From an uncultured bacterium (lineage in GTDB: Bacteria > Calescibacteriota > Calescibacteriia > Calescibacteriales > Calescibacteriaceae): a DNA stretch of 64,000 bases. The DNA lies in NCBI GenBank assembly GCA_938036315.1, contig CALHPK010000009.1, positions 1 to 64,000 on the forward strand, written 5' to 3'. Every line of letters starts with the position of its first letter. Within the stretch, counting starts at the first letter, position 1. Below, one piece after another: positions 2-6,800 of the stretch. Below the pieces are notes generated by a model, which worked only from the letters and a program-made list of their open reading frames with translations, was not told where the DNA came from and did not search any database. The position numbers were made by a program, and so were the translations under genes.

Positions 2-1294
2 AACATAGATCCCACAACATGGGAATTCAAACTTCGCAAAGGAGTAAAGTTTCACAACGGAGATGAACTTACATCGGAGGATGTGTGCTTCACAATAAAG
101 CTCCACCTTGATCCAAACACCAAATCACCAACGCAAGGAATATTGTCATCAATAAAAGATTGCCAACAGGTAGACCCATACACATTCAGGCTTATCACTC
201 ATTTCCCAGATGGTATGCTCGTATATAGACTACATATGTTCTCAGATGTCCTACCCTCGAACTTCATTAAGAAAGTGGGATTAGATAAGTTCGCAGAAAA
301 ACCAATAGGAACTGGTCCGTTTATGTTCGAAAGCTGGGAAAAAGGGATAAAAATAACCTTGACTAAAAACCCGAATTACTGGCAATCTGGATGGCCAAAA
401 TATAATAAACTCATCTTTATTATGATTCCTGAAAAGGACTGGAGTTCTGCTCTACGAAAAGGGGAGGTAGATGTTGTCTTTAACCTGAAGGGGCAAGATG
501 CAACGGTACTGGGACGACTTCCAGAGGTAAAAATTCACAAAAAGCTGGTTCACATAGGATACCAAGTTGTCATAAAGAATGTGGGACACTTAGCTGACCC
601 TGAAGTTAGAAAAGCTTTGAACTATGCTGTAAATAAGCAGAAGCTTATACAGGTTCAGGATGCTGGTTTTGGAGAAGTGATTCCATCCTTGGGGAAAAAG
701 GGAGAACTTGGCTCAGCAGCCAATGAACTTACTCCTTATCCTTATGATCCTGGCAAAGCAAGGGAAATTCTGAGTAAGAAGGGAATAACGAAAGAAAAGC
801 CACTTGTCATAAACGCACTGGTGTCAGATATAGCAGAGAAGCTTGCCAGAGCCATCAGAGCAGATCTGCTAGAAGTCGGTGTTGACCTGAAGCTAAAAGT
901 TGTACCACGCTCAGAGTGGGCAAATCTTATCCCAATAGCTAAAATGACAAAAGGGAAACCAGACTGGACCGGAGAGATGGCAATTTCTATGGTAGATAAC
1001 CCAATAAAGGATGCTGCTTTTCACTACTTCATATTCCTTCACTCAAAGGGTCCTTTCTCCCTACTTGATGAGCCCGAATATGATGAAAAGCTTTTCTGGG
1101 CACTTTCAACAGTCGACGAGAAGGAGCACGACCGCAGATTAAAAGAAGTTGACAAAATGATCTATGACAAAGCCTATATGATATTCACATACCAAAAAAT
1201 TATGACTTTGGGAGCAAGGAAAAATATAAGTATAAAAGGAATCGTAATAAACGGCCATATGGATAATATCCTGTGGAACGCAGAGATCCTATGA
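2..1294 (+). CDS. ABC transporter solute-binding protein, family 5 (peptide type), 5'-partial
   Basis: Extracytoplasmic binding protein of the SBP_bac_5 (DppA/OppA) family, which delivers peptides, nickel or sugars to an ABC importer or a receptor. The reading frame is open from the window edge, so the signal peptide and first residues are missing; 430 residues are visible. The edge encodes [20 protein letters not shown], the classic family-5 block. Further on are [19 protein letters not shown], the basic-residue-rich ligand lobe and [13 protein letters not shown]. The last codons overlap the next gene (a chemoreceptor) by ATGA, so the two are translationally coupled; this suggests a role in chemotaxis as well as, or instead of, transport. 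No permease or ATPase genes are visible. The ligand cannot be told from sequence. Confidence 0.88.
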
Positions 1295-2928
1295 AGCTGA
1301 AAAATATAAGTGTTAGATGGAGAATATTTCTTCTTCTTGGTATTATCTTCTTCTTCTTCATTGCAGTAGTAGGAACATCCTCCCTATTTCTTCATAATGT
1401 TTCTTTAAGGACTGAAACTTTATACACTAAAGCCTTTGTATCAGCCTGCAACACTACCTCTGACATCAGAGCTGGTCTCATCGAAATACAAAGAAAATTT
1501 GAAGGCACACTTCTAAAAAAAGATATCACGATGATTGATATAATAAAGGAAGAATTCGAAGACTACTTTCGCAAAGCTGAAGAACTTCTTGATTATGTAG
1601 AAAGAGGCATAGGAGCAGAAGAAAAAGAAAACTTCCTCAGCCTGAAGAATTTACTGTTCGAGTACAAAACTGATGCACAAGAGAATTTCTTTCCAGCAGT
1701 TGAATCTGAAGACTTTAAAGCAGCGGAAAGCACATTTTTCAATCTCTCAGAAAAATATGAAAGGATAATAAACTTGCTCTCAATCATAACCGCAAGTGTA
1801 ACTCTGGGAGTAGAAGCAGAGGTCAGCAAGACCAAAGAGGGAAACAGAAATATCATCATCATCTTAGGATTAGCCTCTTTGCTAATTATTGGTCTCTCAA
1901 TTGGGATAGCATTCGGTATCTCGAGAAGTATAATTCTCCCGTTAAAGCAGATATCTACCTTTCCCCAGATGATTATAAGAGCTAATATGTGGGACTTAAC
2001 TCATAAGATTCAATATAGCGCAAAAGATGAGATAGGGGTCGTAGCCCAAAGTATGAACTCTTTCATAGACAGACTAAAAGAAGTTACCGGCACAATGGTA
2101 GAGTCTTCACGAAACCTTGGCAGTATCGCCAATAATTTGAGAGACATCAGCAAAATCATTTTAGATATGACGAATAGAAACACTGATATGGCAGCACAGC
2201 TTTCAAATTCTGTAGAGGAGATGGTCGCAACACTAAAGGAAATAATAAAAAACTCTGAGGTCACGTCAGAGCAAGTTAAAACAACGCAAGAGATAGTAAT
2301 GACAGGGATAAAAGCAGTTACAAATCTTATAGATCAAGTTAAAGTTGTGGAGGAAGTTTTCAAAACAGTATACAATCTTTTCGAGAAGATGAGAGCTGAG
2401 TTCAAAAATATGCAAAAGATCATAAGTATTCTTGAGGATATAACGGTGCAGACGAACCTTTTATCTCTGAATGCCTCAATAGAAGCATCAAGAGCTGGCG
2501 AACATGGCAAGGGATTTGCAGTTGTTGCAGAGGAGGTAAGGAAATTAGCTCAAAGAACTGCTGACTTTCTCAAAAATATACAATTAACTATGAGCAAAAT
2601 AGATGGAGAAGTTGAGAGCACTTATGGAGCTATTGAAGAAGGTAAAAAAATCATAATTCAAAGTGTAGAAATCTCAAGAAAAACAGCTGAAAATCTATCA
2701 GTTATGAAGGATCAACTTACAAAACAGCTACAAGCTATTCGAGAAATATCCGCAATGGCTACACAGAAAAGGAGAACCGTTGATATCTTATCAGAAATGG
2801 CAGTTGCTGCTGCGAGCTACTCACAACAGGTTCTAGACAATATCCACAAACTCTCCTCAAATGTTCAACAAATCTACGGAGTATCGAAAGAAATAGAGGA
2901 GCTTACCTCAACCTTCAAAATAAAGTGA
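1291..2928 (+). CDS. Methyl-accepting chemotaxis protein, four-helix-bundle sensor type
   Basis: Transmembrane chemoreceptor that signals through CheW/CheA. The 545-residue product has TM1 at about 10-32, an all-helical periplasmic region at about 33-185 resembling 4HB_MCP sensors, TM2 at about 188-213 and HAMP at about 214-268. A long signalling coiled coil follows, with the conserved tip near 381-423 ([15 protein letters not shown] and [18 protein letters not shown]). ATG at 1291 was chosen because it makes an ATGA overlap with the upstream binding-protein gene; a GTG at 1273 is possible but lies deeper inside that gene. There is no C-terminal NWETF-like pentapeptide for CheR/CheB tethering. 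E. coli Tap, also a 4HB receptor, senses dipeptides through the family-5 protein DppA, so the upstream gene is the natural partner; this is inference. Confidence 0.93.
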
Positions 2929-2933
2929 ACAGG

Positions 2934-3428
2934 CTATTCCTCTCTGTATAGTTCCAAAATTTTTCTGATTATCTGGGTTGTTGATACATTTTCAACCAAA
3001 TCTACCCTTATTACCTTTCCTCCATAAGATCTGACAAAATCCGCTCCTATGATGTTGTTTTCATCCCAATCTTTACCTTTCAGAAGAATATCCGGTCTTA
3101 TCAGCCTTATAAGAGTCTCAGGAGTATCTTCGTTAAAGGGGACAACAAAATCAACAGCTTCACAAGATGCAACAATTATCATTCTGTATCCCAATGGGAT
3201 TACTGGTCTTTTTTCTCCCTTAAGTTTCTTTATGGATTCATCGGAATTTATTCCAACAAAAAGAACGTCTGCGTAATTTTTAGCTTCAAAGAACGTTTTT
3301 ATATGTCCCACGTGAATAATGTCGTAACAGCCATTTGTGAAGGCTATTTTTTTTCCTTCTTTTTTTAGTTTGTCAGATATTTCTGATGCTTTTTTTTCAT
3401 CTATTATTTTAAGCTCGGGTAATCTCAT
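2934..3428 (-). CDS. hldE: D-glycero-beta-D-manno-heptose 1-phosphate adenylyltransferase (HldE C-terminal domain type)
   Basis: Cytidylyltransferase-fold enzyme that forms ADP-heptose for the LPS inner core. The 164-residue product matches only the C-terminal half of bifunctional E. coli HldE (often called RfaE2 when separate). It has FTNGCYDIIHVGH (nucleotide-binding HxGH), VGINSDESIKKLKG, RPDILLKGKDW, GADFVRSYGGKV and the terminal STTQIIRKI. No kinase half is present in the window. It follows lspA with a 4-base ATGA overlap, so the two form an operon. With lpxB elsewhere in the window it argues for a heptose-containing LPS. Confidence 0.93.
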   Translation of the reverse strand: MRLPELKIIDEKKASEISDKLKKEGKKIAFTNGCYDIIHVGHIKTFFEAKNYADVLFVGINSDESIKKLKGEKRPVIPLGYRMIIVASCEAVDFVVPFNEDTPETLIRLIRPDILLKGKDWDENNIIGADFVRSYGGKVIRVDLVENVSTTQIIRKILELYREE

Positions 3429-3919
3429 TTTTTTACTACGATGGCTTTTATAATGATGTATATAAGTCCTAAGGTTATTACTGAGTCAGCGATATTGAAA
3501 GCTGGCCAGTGCCATCTACCAACATGGAAGTCAATGAAATCAACCACATATCCTTTTGTTAGCCTCTCATAAACATTTCCCGCAGCCCCCCCGAACATCA
3601 CTCCGATAACATAAAAAGTCTTTATATCAAAAGTTCTTGCAAAAAAGAGTAAAGCAAGCATTACCAAAATAGAAACTATATTCATTCCCCACCTGAAAAA
3701 TTCGCTGTCAAAATTTGAAAAAATTCCAAAAACTCCCCCCCTATTGACAACATAGACTATGTTTAGGAAATCTGTAATTTTTATATCTTGAAAAGGCTTT
3801 ATCTTTGCTTCAACGAGCTGTTTAGTTGCTATATCTACCACAAAGATACAAAAAGATATTGTAAAGAAGATTATCCACTTTCTAAACCCCTTTGAAGGTA
3901 CTGGGTCAGCTTTATTCAT
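3425..3919 (-). CDS. lspA: Lipoprotein signal peptidase (signal peptidase II)
   Basis: Inner-membrane aspartyl protease that removes signal peptides from prolipoproteins after diacylglyceryl transfer. The 164 residues carry four predicted membrane helices (about 14-32, 75-93, 98-116, 138-158). Conserved blocks are VVNRGGVFGIF, GGAAGNVYERL followed by VVDFID (first catalytic Asp) and PAFNIADSVI (second catalytic Asp). Canonical NxGAAFG is NRGGVFG here. Expected substrates in this window include the giant surface lipoprotein at 17.6 kb and the TRL-like lipoprotein at 47.3 kb. It overlaps the downstream hldE-type gene by 4 bases. Confidence 0.95.
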   Translation of the reverse strand: MNKADPVPSKGFRKWIIFFTISFCIFVVDIATKQLVEAKIKPFQDIKITDFLNIVYVVNRGGVFGIFSNFDSEFFRWGMNIVSILVMLALLFFARTFDIKTFYVIGVMFGGAAGNVYERLTKGYVVDFIDFHVGRWHWPAFNIADSVITLGLIYIIIKAIVVKK

Positions 3920-4531: not shown

Positions 4532-4639
4532 AGCTTTCCTCCCATCTTTATATATATTTTGGATATCGTATTTCCCATTTTTATTTTTTACCTTTTGATT
4601 TTCAACTTTTTTACAATTTCTCACTGAAATTATTCTCAT

Positions 4640-5551
4640 ATGTTCCAGGCCTTGGCCATAGTTGGGGCAACTGCTTCAGGAAAGTCAGAAATAGCTGTAA
4701 AGATCTGTAGCAGACTTAGGGATAATGGAACTGAAGCCGAACTGATCTCAGTAGATTCAAGAAAAATCTATAAATACTTTGACATCGGAACTGCTAAACC
4801 TCCGAAAGTGAATTTTAAGTGGCACCTTGTAGGTATACTTGAACCAACCGAGAAATTCTCCGCAAAAAAATTTGAGGTTTTAGCTAAAAAATTAATAAAA
4901 GAAATAAAGGAGCAAAATAAAATTCCAATCTTAGTAGGCGGAACCTGGCTCTACTACAGAGCAATAGAAAAAGGATTGTTTGATGAACCAGAGGATAAAT
5001 CACTGAGAGAGAGACTCGAAAAAAAACTCCAGCAAAATGGGAAAGAATCACTGTGGGATATGCTAAAAAAAATTGATCCGAAAGCATGCGAAAAACTGCA
5101 TCCTAATGACACTTTCAGGATCATAAGAGCAATAGAGGTGAAAATAAAAACGGGTAGATCTATACTTGAACTGGGGTGGAAGGAAGGCAAAGGGGAGAAA
5201 TTTCCACTTCTCAAAGTTGGCATATGGCGAAGCGCAGAAGAACTCAAAAGGAGAATAACCCAAAGGGTAACAAAGCAAATACAAGCAGGACTCATCGAAG
5301 AAACAAGGAAGCTATACGAAAGCTTCGGAGAAAGCACTCCCCTGCTAAAATCAATTGCCTACCTTGAGCCATATCTGTATATCAGAGGAAAAATTTCGTA
5401 TGATGAAATGGTAAAGATGATGATAAAAAGAAACTTCAAATATGGAAAATACCAGATAAAAGTTTTCTCAAGGGATGGGACCATATGGTTCAAAAACGAA
5501 CAGGAATTAATCAACTTTTCAATTAGAGCACTTGGAAAACTGATAATGTAA
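4640..5551 (+). CDS. miaA: tRNA dimethylallyltransferase
   Basis: Transfers a dimethylallyl group to A37 of tRNAs reading UNN codons. The 303-residue product begins with the P-loop GATASGKS. It continues with SVDSRKIYKYFDIGTAKP (the catalytic-Asp and substrate block), PILVGGTWLYYRA and HPNDTFRIIRAIEV. The C-terminal region is slightly divergent: the usual AIGYKE motif is SIAYLEP, and the tail lacks the normal YAKRQ, reading FKYGKYQIKVFSRDGTIWF. The ATG at 4640 leaves almost no gap to the divergent frame; no clear Shine-Dalgarno is seen, so the start could be leaderless. mtaB, which acts on A37 of other tRNAs, is at 53.4 kb. Confidence 0.93.
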   Translation: MFQALAIVGATASGKSEIAVKICSRLRDNGTEAELISVDSRKIYKYFDIGTAKPPKVNFKWHLVGILEPTEKFSAKKFEVLAKKLIKEIKEQNKIPILVGGTWLYYRAIEKGLFDEPEDKSLRERLEKKLQQNGKESLWDMLKKIDPKACEKLHPNDTFRIIRAIEVKIKTGRSILELGWKEGKGEKFPLLKVGIWRSAEELKRRITQRVTKQIQAGLIEETRKLYESFGESTPLLKSIAYLEPYLYIRGKISYDEMVKMMIKRNFKYGKYQIKVFSRDGTIWFKNEQELINFSIRALGKLIM

Positions 5552-5684
5552 ATTAACAGTATAACAAGATAATTAAGTTATAAATATTTATCGGTTTTGA
5601 CAAGTTTAGGGTGTCAGTTGGTAGCGAGCGAGAATATCGGGCATTATCCCTTACGCCCCATCTTCAGATATTAACATAAAGCTA

Positions 5685-6800
5685 TTACTTTGCATAAGCC
5701 AGAATACTCCCGTCAAAGTCAAATATTAAAACTTCTGAATGGATCTGAGCTATCTCTTCGCACCTTTTTTTTGCAAGTTCCGCTAATTTTGAAAAAACCC
5801 TCACTAATCCAAAAGATTTAGCAAGCTCAGTAAATTCTCTTACGGTATTTGCCTTACTTAGAATTTCTATTATCTCTTGGTTTGAAACTTCATCTTTGAC
5901 AAGCCCGATGAGAAAATCAATATCAATATTTGACTTTTTAGCGTGAGTAAAATCCTCGCCCTTTGCAAACTTAGAAATCTTAGCAGGAAACCCAGCATAT
6001 ATAAACCTTTTTAAACCCTTTTGTTTAGCATACTTGAGAGTAAATCCTATAAAATCTCCGAGATCTACAAAAGCAACTTCTGGAATGTTATGGAGATATT
6101 TCTTTGCCAGCTCTTCACTTTGCCTTCCGGTAGTTCCCACAATGGTATCACTTCCTTCTTCAACAGCCACAGAGATCTGCCTTGCTATACTGGCTCTCCA
6201 AGCCCCGGTAGAATATGGAACAACGATGCCCAAGGTACCTAAGATACCAATTCCTCCTACAACCCCGAGTCGCTCAAGCAGAGTTTTTTTAGCTCTTTGT
6301 GCACCTTCAGGAACAAAGATTTCAACAACAAGTGATACTTCACCTTCTTTTAGCCCGACAAGTTCCAAGGCAGAGCAAACAGCCCTTTTTATCATTCTCA
6401 TCGGCACGGGAGTTATATCCGGGCTTCCGATCTCAAGCCCAAGTCCTGGTTTCGTTACCCTCCCAACTCCCTCTCCTCCCTTGATCAATATGCCTTTTTG
6501 ACTTCCTTCATAGACTCTCGCACAAATTTCCGCTCCGTGTGTAACATCAGGATCGTCTCCTGCATCTTTTATTACCGAAGCTATAGCTTCTCCGGTGAAC
6601 TTTTCTGATCGAAAAATCCTGAGCCTTGCTACTTTTCCCTTGATAGGAAGATCAACCTCTACTTCATCTTTTAAGCTTTTACCCAAAAGTAGTAAAGTCG
6701 CAGCCTTTGAAGCAGCGGAAGCACAGGTTCCGGTAGTCCATCCTTCCTTTAGCTTCCCACTTTTGATTCTTTCTGCCCTTTCTCTAGCTGTCTCCTCCAT
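5685..6800 (-). CDS. cbiD: Cobalt-precorrin-5B (C1)-methyltransferase
   Basis: Anaerobic-route cobalamin enzyme that methylates C1 of the corrin ring using SAM. The 371 residues show the CbiD hallmarks GWTTGTCASAASKAA near the N terminus, DDPDVTHGAEICARV, GGEGVGRVTKPGL, VPMRMI, a Gly-rich GGIGILGTLGIVVPYS stretch and GDFIGF. Length is normal for the family. No other cobalamin gene is present in the window and no cobalamin riboswitch is visible in the 68 bases upstream, so the gene stands apart from any cbi/cob cluster. Its start is divergent from the purine permease. Confidence 0.93.
   Translation of the reverse strand: MEETARERAERIKSGKLKEGWTTGTCASAASKAATLLLLGKSLKDEVEVDLPIKGKVARLRIFRSEKFTGEAIASVIKDAGDDPDVTHGAEICARVYEGSQKGILIKGGEGVGRVTKPGLGLEIGSPDITPVPMRMIKRAVCSALELVGLKEGEVSLVVEIFVPEGAQRAKKTLLERLGVVGGIGILGTLGIVVPYSTGAWRASIARQISVAVEEGSDTIVGTTGRQSEELAKKYLHNIPEVAFVDLGDFIGFTLKYAKQKGLKRFIYAGFPAKISKFAKGEDFTHAKKSNIDIDFLIGLVKDEVSNQEIIEILSKANTVREFTELAKSFGLVRVFSKLAELAKKRCEEIAQIHSEVLIFDFDGSILAYAK

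Follow-up and report, generated by a model that had tools for sequence, protein, structure and literature searches.

The window analysed here, a stretch of 64,000 nucleotides, forms the start of contig C9 in the 1.87 Mb genome of an uncultured bacterium of the Calescibacteriota (G000; 32 contigs, 85% complete). It opens with the truncated gene of a family-5 solute-binding protein (SBP), whose PF00496 match reaches 221.8 bits against a cut-off of 32.4, followed by the gene of a methyl-accepting chemotaxis protein (MCP) with the make-up of a transmembrane receptor, namely two membrane spans, a partial HAMP domain and a signalling domain (Table 1). The first-pass annotation had reported that the last bases of the SBP gene, ATGA, also contain the start codon of the MCP, and this overlap was confirmed. 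The convergent downstream neighbours (window 2934-3919), a cytidylyltransferase-like gene and signal peptidase II, are unrelated to the pair.

Table 1. Features of the SBP-MCP locus in the window and sensor genes found beside MCPs in related genomes
Feature	Position	Strand	Basis
Family-5 solute-binding protein (SBP_bac_5), C-terminal 430 residues	2..1294	+	Pfam PF00496, E 1.9e-65; open at window edge
ATGA, MCP start codon overlapping SBP stop codon	1291..1294	+	ATG 1291-1293, TGA 1292-1294; sequence
Methyl-accepting chemotaxis protein, 545 residues	1291..2928	+	Pfam MCPsignal, E 2.5e-32; stop 2926-2928
TM1 (about 1303-1401), predicted periplasmic four-helix-bundle domain, TM2 (about 1840-1944)	1303..1944	+	Hydropathy; AlphaFold2; fold matches
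HAMP domain, partial match	1993..2082	+	Pfam PF00672, residues 235-264, 26.1 bits against a cut-off of 25
MCP signalling domain	2269..2796	+	Pfam PF00015, residues 327-502; same place in a second PF00015 search (five genomes)
Peripla_BP_6 and MCP, G002	L096:3510-4601 with MCP L096:1907-3490		
Peripla_BP_6 and MCP, G004	L095:3622-4599 with MCP L095:1972-3498		
Cytochrome P460 genes	L078:704-1198 (G002); L083:2394-2921 (G004); L093:3452-3895, L089:535-1071 (G001)		
ODP genes	L090:2866-3702; L094:2899-3678; L097:2921-3736; L088:891-1679		

The missing N-terminal part of the SBP is supplied by another contig of the same genome, C18 (52 kb), the end of which is identical to the first 118 bases of the window; the join is based on this exact 118-base overlap. 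Across it the SBP frame is continuous for 505 codons, reaching a signal-like N-terminus, and the 20 kb upstream on C18, with open reading frames read by eye, hold an ExbD-like gene, the gene of a protein without a Pfam match, and unrelated genes. Each of the other four family genomes analysed contains an orthologue of the SBP (69-72% identical), the best match outside the family being 33% identical. When read by eye, the N-termini of these four orthologues resemble Sec signal peptides and carry no lipobox, and the two other SBP_5 proteins of G000 show a cysteine at a lipobox-like place. An AlphaFold2 prediction from the five SBP sequences was poor (pLDDT 57), and no claim made here rests on it.

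The N-terminus of the G000 protein itself consists of a hydrophobic segment that lacks a standard start codon, with no ATG, GTG or TTG in frame on C18 between an in-frame stop and the mature protein. This site lies at about 300-360 of C18 (L011, minus strand), which joins window position 1. The cause may be a mistake in assembly, an unusual start or decay of the gene. If the gene had decayed, only the MCP would be active in G000, a reading to which the missing start codon lends some weight; it is nevertheless very improbable, as the site lies at the end of a metagenome contig, where assembly errors may occur, the signal-like segment has a strong ribosome-binding sequence ahead of it, and the remaining 505 codons form an open frame that shares about 70% identity with the four orthologues.

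On the receptor side, the two transmembrane stretches flank a periplasmic part of ~150 residues, for which no Pfam family scored over its cut-off (TarH reached 15.7 bits against 25.2, and 4HB_MCP was not among the matches). AlphaFold2, applied to the sensory region with an alignment of four orthologous fragments, predicted four helices with a mean pLDDT of 82.7 (2-76, 79-104, 109-138 and 142-218, with the membrane spans falling within the first and the last of them). A Foldseek search of this model against the PDB gave no match at E 0.001 or better, the best matches being the chemoreceptor four-helix-bundle (4HB) domains of Vc1313 and MCP2201 and the LytSN domain of the XylFII-LytSN complex. 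In VIA-align comparisons, MCP2201 superposed with Z 16.3 and LytSN with Z 15.3 (rmsd 2.0, 121 residues); since designed bundles reach a similar Z of 16.6, these matches show the fold and nothing more. The four-helix bundle proposed in the first-pass annotation for the periplasmic part is thus supported by the predicted model and its superposition on known 4HB sensor domains. The four-row alignment of the sensory region contains only seven invariant columns, a scarcity that would be expected of a receptor whose ligand is held by the SBP and not by the MCP itself.

To place the pair in its lineage, five genomes of the family (G000-G004) were compared, representing three genera, one of which comprises G001, G003 and G004; records of relatives include Bacterium HR19 (G003), the hot-spring-type MAG BF2.bins.44 and Candidatus Calescibacterium sp. 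SKYB43. All five genomes have an MCP directly beside the SBP and on the same strand. The SBP comes first in two genomes (a 4-base overlap in G000 and a gap of 14 in G002), and the MCP in the other three, with a gap of 7 in both G001 and G003 and of about 80 in G004. The G003 MCP ends in AGG AGG TGA, which doubles as the ribosome-binding site for the SBP, and the genes flanking the pair differ between genera. As an observation apart, the coding sequence of the SBP-linked MCP in G001 falls into two frames (L047:4042-4422 and 4557-5729), and the 95%-identical gene of G003 is intact; a sequencing error or recent decay may account for the split.

None of 31 control SBP_5 loci carried an MCP in the sequence examined. 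These controls, which are not a random sample, comprise 25 loci of other families (the best-scoring one per genome, with flanks of ~1.5 kb) and six loci of the family's own two paralogous SBP_5 types. With the same flank as that of the 25, an MCP was detected at all of the family loci L018-L021. At one outside SBP_5 locus with 6 kb flanks (L050), an MCP was found on the other strand, not adjacent but at a distance of about 2 kb. A rough estimate puts the chance of a same-strand SBP_5-MCP neighbour at ~1% per genome (seven MCP matches in a genome of about 1,900 genes, a number that is itself an estimate). Chance adjacency was rejected in view of the occurrence of the pair in all five family genomes, against none of the 31 controls.

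The two partners have evolved at very different rates. Between genera, the SBP retains 69-73% identity, close to the values with G000 of the lipoprotein SBP paralogue (68-69%) and the OppB-type permease (68-73%), both slow like the SBP; for the region from TM1 through the sensory domain of the paired MCPs, the corresponding value is 15-24%. Over their whole length, the paired MCP of G000 and those of G001, G003 and G004 are 27-30% identical, compared with 31-59% for other reciprocal-best MCP pairs with G000, and the paired MCPs of G000 and G002 are not reciprocal best hits within the set compared. For phylogenetic analysis, the 51 PF00015 rows in the five genomes were reduced to 40 distinct loci by setting aside seven weak or partial rows (six places), the broken gene L084 (two fragments), the identical copy L086 and two rows that are second stretches of genes already in the set. 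In the resulting tree, whose alignment includes sensory parts where alignable, the five SBP-linked MCPs form one group (support 98/93) nested in a larger group of 11 MCPs (92/94). A tree of the signalling domain only (34 rows, after six of the 40 without the tip motif used had been dropped) retained the group of 11 (87/84); the five paired MCPs came together in only 36% of its 200 bootstrap trees, a result of drift in the long G002 row. Judged from these sequences, common descent of all five paired MCPs is likely, but not certain.

Could the two genes be ancestral neighbours kept by descent without any cooperation, with the change of order arising through duplication and differential loss? The small sample (five genomes, three genera, one order change) would allow for this, hidden paralogy could explain why the branches of the paired MCPs are so long, and some MCP neighbours without a sensing role are likewise conserved: an epimerase with no evident sensing role lies beside the MCPs L075, L076 and L072, and adjacency alone is therefore not proof of a functional link. 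However, the pair stays together while the flanking genes differ between genera, the coding regions overlap or are separated by only 7-14 bases in four of the five genomes, and secreted binding proteins are encoded next to other MCPs of the group of 11 as well, which makes purely neutral linkage improbable.

For model bacteria, the predicted ligands of SBP_5 proteins are described as almost exclusively di-, tri- and oligopeptides (PMC9602780), and in Sphingomonas an SBP of an oligopeptide-type system is reported to bind pectin and trigger chemotaxis (PMC7055323). The first-pass annotation had drawn a tie to dipeptide sensing by way of DppA, which proved weak: the SBP falls far below the cut-offs of all named NCBIfam SBP models, with no equivalog reached (for DppA, the orthologue L048 scores 76 bits against a cut-off of 1005), and the W-x-G-D stretch is altered, with a 9-residue insertion and a proline at the aligned aspartate position, where the alignment is uncertain. 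In DppA, the aspartate of this stretch holds the peptide N-terminus. Since the stretch is disrupted and the segment around it hardly varies across the family, the sequence makes a non-standard ligand plausible. Assignment to a single compound was rejected in view of the absence of any equivalog match and of the mixed character of the nearest solved relatives (the peptide ABC SBP 8upi, 5u4o, AgaA, and the agrocinopine protein AccA). The ligand would be oligopeptide-like or another small organic molecule.

Taken together, the two genes probably encode a chemoreceptor made of two pieces, in which the SBP, once loaded, docks on the bundle of the MCP. In such a system, the SBP would be exported to the periplasm and close around a small organic ligand; by analogy with MBP-Tar, DppA-Tap and the docking of XylFII on helices H3/H4 of LytS, the loaded form would then dock on the four-helix-bundle domain of the neighbouring MCP and shift its signalling state in a ligand-dependent manner, and the MCP would relay the signal by way of its HAMP domain and coiled coil to CheA/CheW and on to the flagellum. 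All five genomes carry CheW-family and flagellin genes, and genes for chemotaxis and flagella have been described for Calescamantes (PMC4791363). This interpretation draws on the pairing itself, kept in all five genomes with the order swapped in one genus and absent from the 31 controls, and on the grouping of the paired MCPs (98/93) and the lack of any permease or oligo_HPY ATPase match on C18. The predicted 4HB fold, being that on which XylFII docks in LytS, the signal-like orthologue N-termini without a lipobox and the scarcity of invariant sensory residues also speak for it. Several points weigh on the other side: with the sensory region at 15-24% identity and the SBP near 70%, no conserved docking surface is evident from the alignments; the MCPs of G000 and G002 are not reciprocal best hits, and the 36% grouping in the signalling-domain tree is low; the epimerase cases show conserved MCP neighbours with no sensing role; and in G000 the SBP lacks a standard start and the C18-C9 join spans 118 bases.

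Whether the SBP also takes part in import is a separate matter. The first-pass annotation had suggested a ligand-sensing pair serving taxis and not import, unless transporter genes lay upstream. Such an upstream operon was rejected, as neither the 20 kb read on C18 nor the genome-wide profile searches for BPD_transp_1 (PF00528) and oligo_HPY (PF08352) revealed a permease or Opp/Dpp-type ATPase anywhere on the 52 kb of that contig, and the nearest permease or oligo_HPY match on C9 lies at 118 kb. Hence the full ABC transporter operon that would have spoken against the pair did not appear, and the idea of a functional pair was strengthened by linkage that survives an order swap in five of five genomes and by a sensory fold matching the SBP-receiving fold of XylFII-LytS. 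Exclusivity for taxis, on the other hand, gained no such support, given the Opp-type genes scattered through the genome: the OppB- and OppC-like permeases of G000 lie on C12, C15 and C25, its two oligo_HPY ATPases are encoded on C23 and C10, with no linkage among these genes, and each family genome has exactly two such ATPases and scattered OppB/OppC-type permease genes. With transporter genes dispersed in this way throughout the lineage, missing linkage says little about import.

Under these circumstances, the SBP may be a subunit of a single scattered Opp-type importer that serves the MCP as well, much as MBP serves both MalFGK and Tar; this is given slightly less than an even chance. Linkage would then show the taxis partner only, because the lineage does not keep these transporter genes together, and this reading fits the two-piece receptor, differing from it in exclusivity alone. 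The unlinked permeases, with exactly two oligo_HPY ATPases per genome, agree with such a dual role, as does the slow evolution of the SBP: being about as conserved as the OppB-type permease and the lipoprotein paralogue, it could still have an added import role and feed the scattered transporter. The more obvious importer subunit, however, is the second SBP_5, a lipoprotein whose best-fitting model is OppA (224.9 bits) and which is kept in all five genomes. A binding protein used for taxis only, with no importer, as with BasB and CosB, is rather unlikely. It would accord with the permease-free C18, with the distance of the nearest match on C9 and with the availability of another SBP_5 for import, but absent linkage is weak evidence where transporter genes are scattered, and an SBP that stays strongly conserved next to a drifting receptor gives a hint of some further constraint.

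The two-piece arrangement proposed for the window pair may also have counterparts elsewhere in these genomes. At least 17 of the 40 MCP loci, a lower bound because only part of the neighbours were Pfam-scanned (29 proteins, of which five are transporter genes or genes upstream of the SBP on C18), lie beside genes for stand-alone sensors: the five SBP_5 pairs of the window type, two Peripla_BP_6 proteins, two small secreted-like proteins, four cytochromes P460 and four ODP proteins. The Peripla_BP_6 genes (branched-chain amino acid type) lie directly upstream of an MCP in G002 and G004. The small proteins have signal-like N-termini, and their genes (L082:3467-4051 in G004 and L079:3575-3997 in G001) overlap the MCP start; they are 38% identical to each other, gave no Pfam, NCBIfam or PDB match of note, and may resemble small PstS-like binding domains. 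All nine MCPs with secreted binding-protein-like neighbours fall in the group of 11.

Cytochrome P460 genes are found upstream of four MCPs belonging to one MCP group (twice in G001, one of them 415 bases away, and once each in G002 and G004), and possibly encode a haem-based stand-alone sensor; a search of openly licensed papers found none carrying both "cytochrome P460" and "chemotaxis protein". Di-iron proteins of the ODP family are encoded upstream of four short MCPs without predicted membrane spans, identified by Pfam in G001, G002 and G004 and by 86% identity to the G001 protein in G003. In Treponema denticola, a stand-alone ODP is described as genetically coupled to an MCP without a sensing module of its own (PMC7666581), and the ODP-MCP pairs in four of the five family genomes resemble this oxygen-taxis pair. 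Three further MCPs, again of one group, are followed by genes for DUF2231-like membrane proteins (L091:2746-3309, which is below the Pfam cut-off, L092:1483-1959 and L086:1403-1891).

From this pattern it is tentatively proposed, with the balance somewhat against it, that many chemoreceptors of the lineage consist of two pieces, an MCP that evolves fast and would no longer bind ligand, and an exchangeable sensor encoded next to it. One related set of MCPs would dock SBP_5, Peripla_BP_6 or a small secreted protein, and other groups would use P460 or ODP; in the window-type pair, present in every genome, the partner would carry the specificity and stay constant while the bundle drifts. Searches covering openly licensed papers found none on such lineage-wide pairing of MCPs with separate sensors, and this habit is a more novel lead than the SBP-MCP pair itself.

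Several known systems offer comparisons. Kokoeva et al. are said to have described in 2002 gene neighbourhoods of BasB/BasT and CosB/CosT that lack transporter genes. BasB and CosB belong to SBP families other than family 5. Both couples share with the window pair a binding protein with its own transducer and, reportedly, no transporter genes alongside; they are archaeal and their ligands are known, whereas the window pair is bacterial, of family 5, and accompanied by an Opp-type set elsewhere in the genome. In Halobacterium salinarum, BasB and CosB are reported to co-purify with BasT and CosT (PMC3579733). DppA-Tap is alike in combining a family-5 SBP with an MCP as sensor partner, and unlike in the identity of the SBP, as the distance from the DppA model indicates. 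In Escherichia coli, dppA forms part of a transporter system and has no genetic linkage to tap. DppA is described there as mediating Pro-Leu sensing by Tap (PMC12584664).

For the predicted docking platform, a parallel comes from Clostridium beijerinckii, in which XylFII is described as recognised by the four-helix-bundle sensor domain of LytS, docking on H3/H4 (PMC9769921). LytSN resembles the MCP sensory model at a Z that designed bundles also attain; LytS is a histidine kinase and XylFII belongs to an SBP family unrelated to that of the window protein, whereas the window receptor is an MCP. The Treponema denticola pair differs in being an oxygen sensor joined to an MCP without membrane spans, the window MCP being a membrane protein with a periplasmic partner. 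According to one account, 3 of 11 studied SBP-chemoreceptor couples are adjacent (PMC11113362). SBP-mediated chemotaxis is already known, and linked genes are the exception for chemoreceptors; the window pair is unusually well conserved and finds its best match in BasB/BasT and CosB/CosT.

Activation of a 4HB chemoreceptor by a loaded SBP is difficult to study where the partners are unlinked and shared with importers. In the window pair, the partners are named by the genome itself and several natural versions are available, each combining a constant SBP with a highly variable receptor domain, so that the surface needed for docking and the handover of specificity to the SBP become testable; proteins from a thermophile should, in addition, be stable. 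The conservation of this pairing in a hot-spring lineage, even with the gene order swapped, suggests that the SBP and its receptor jointly sense a nutrient.
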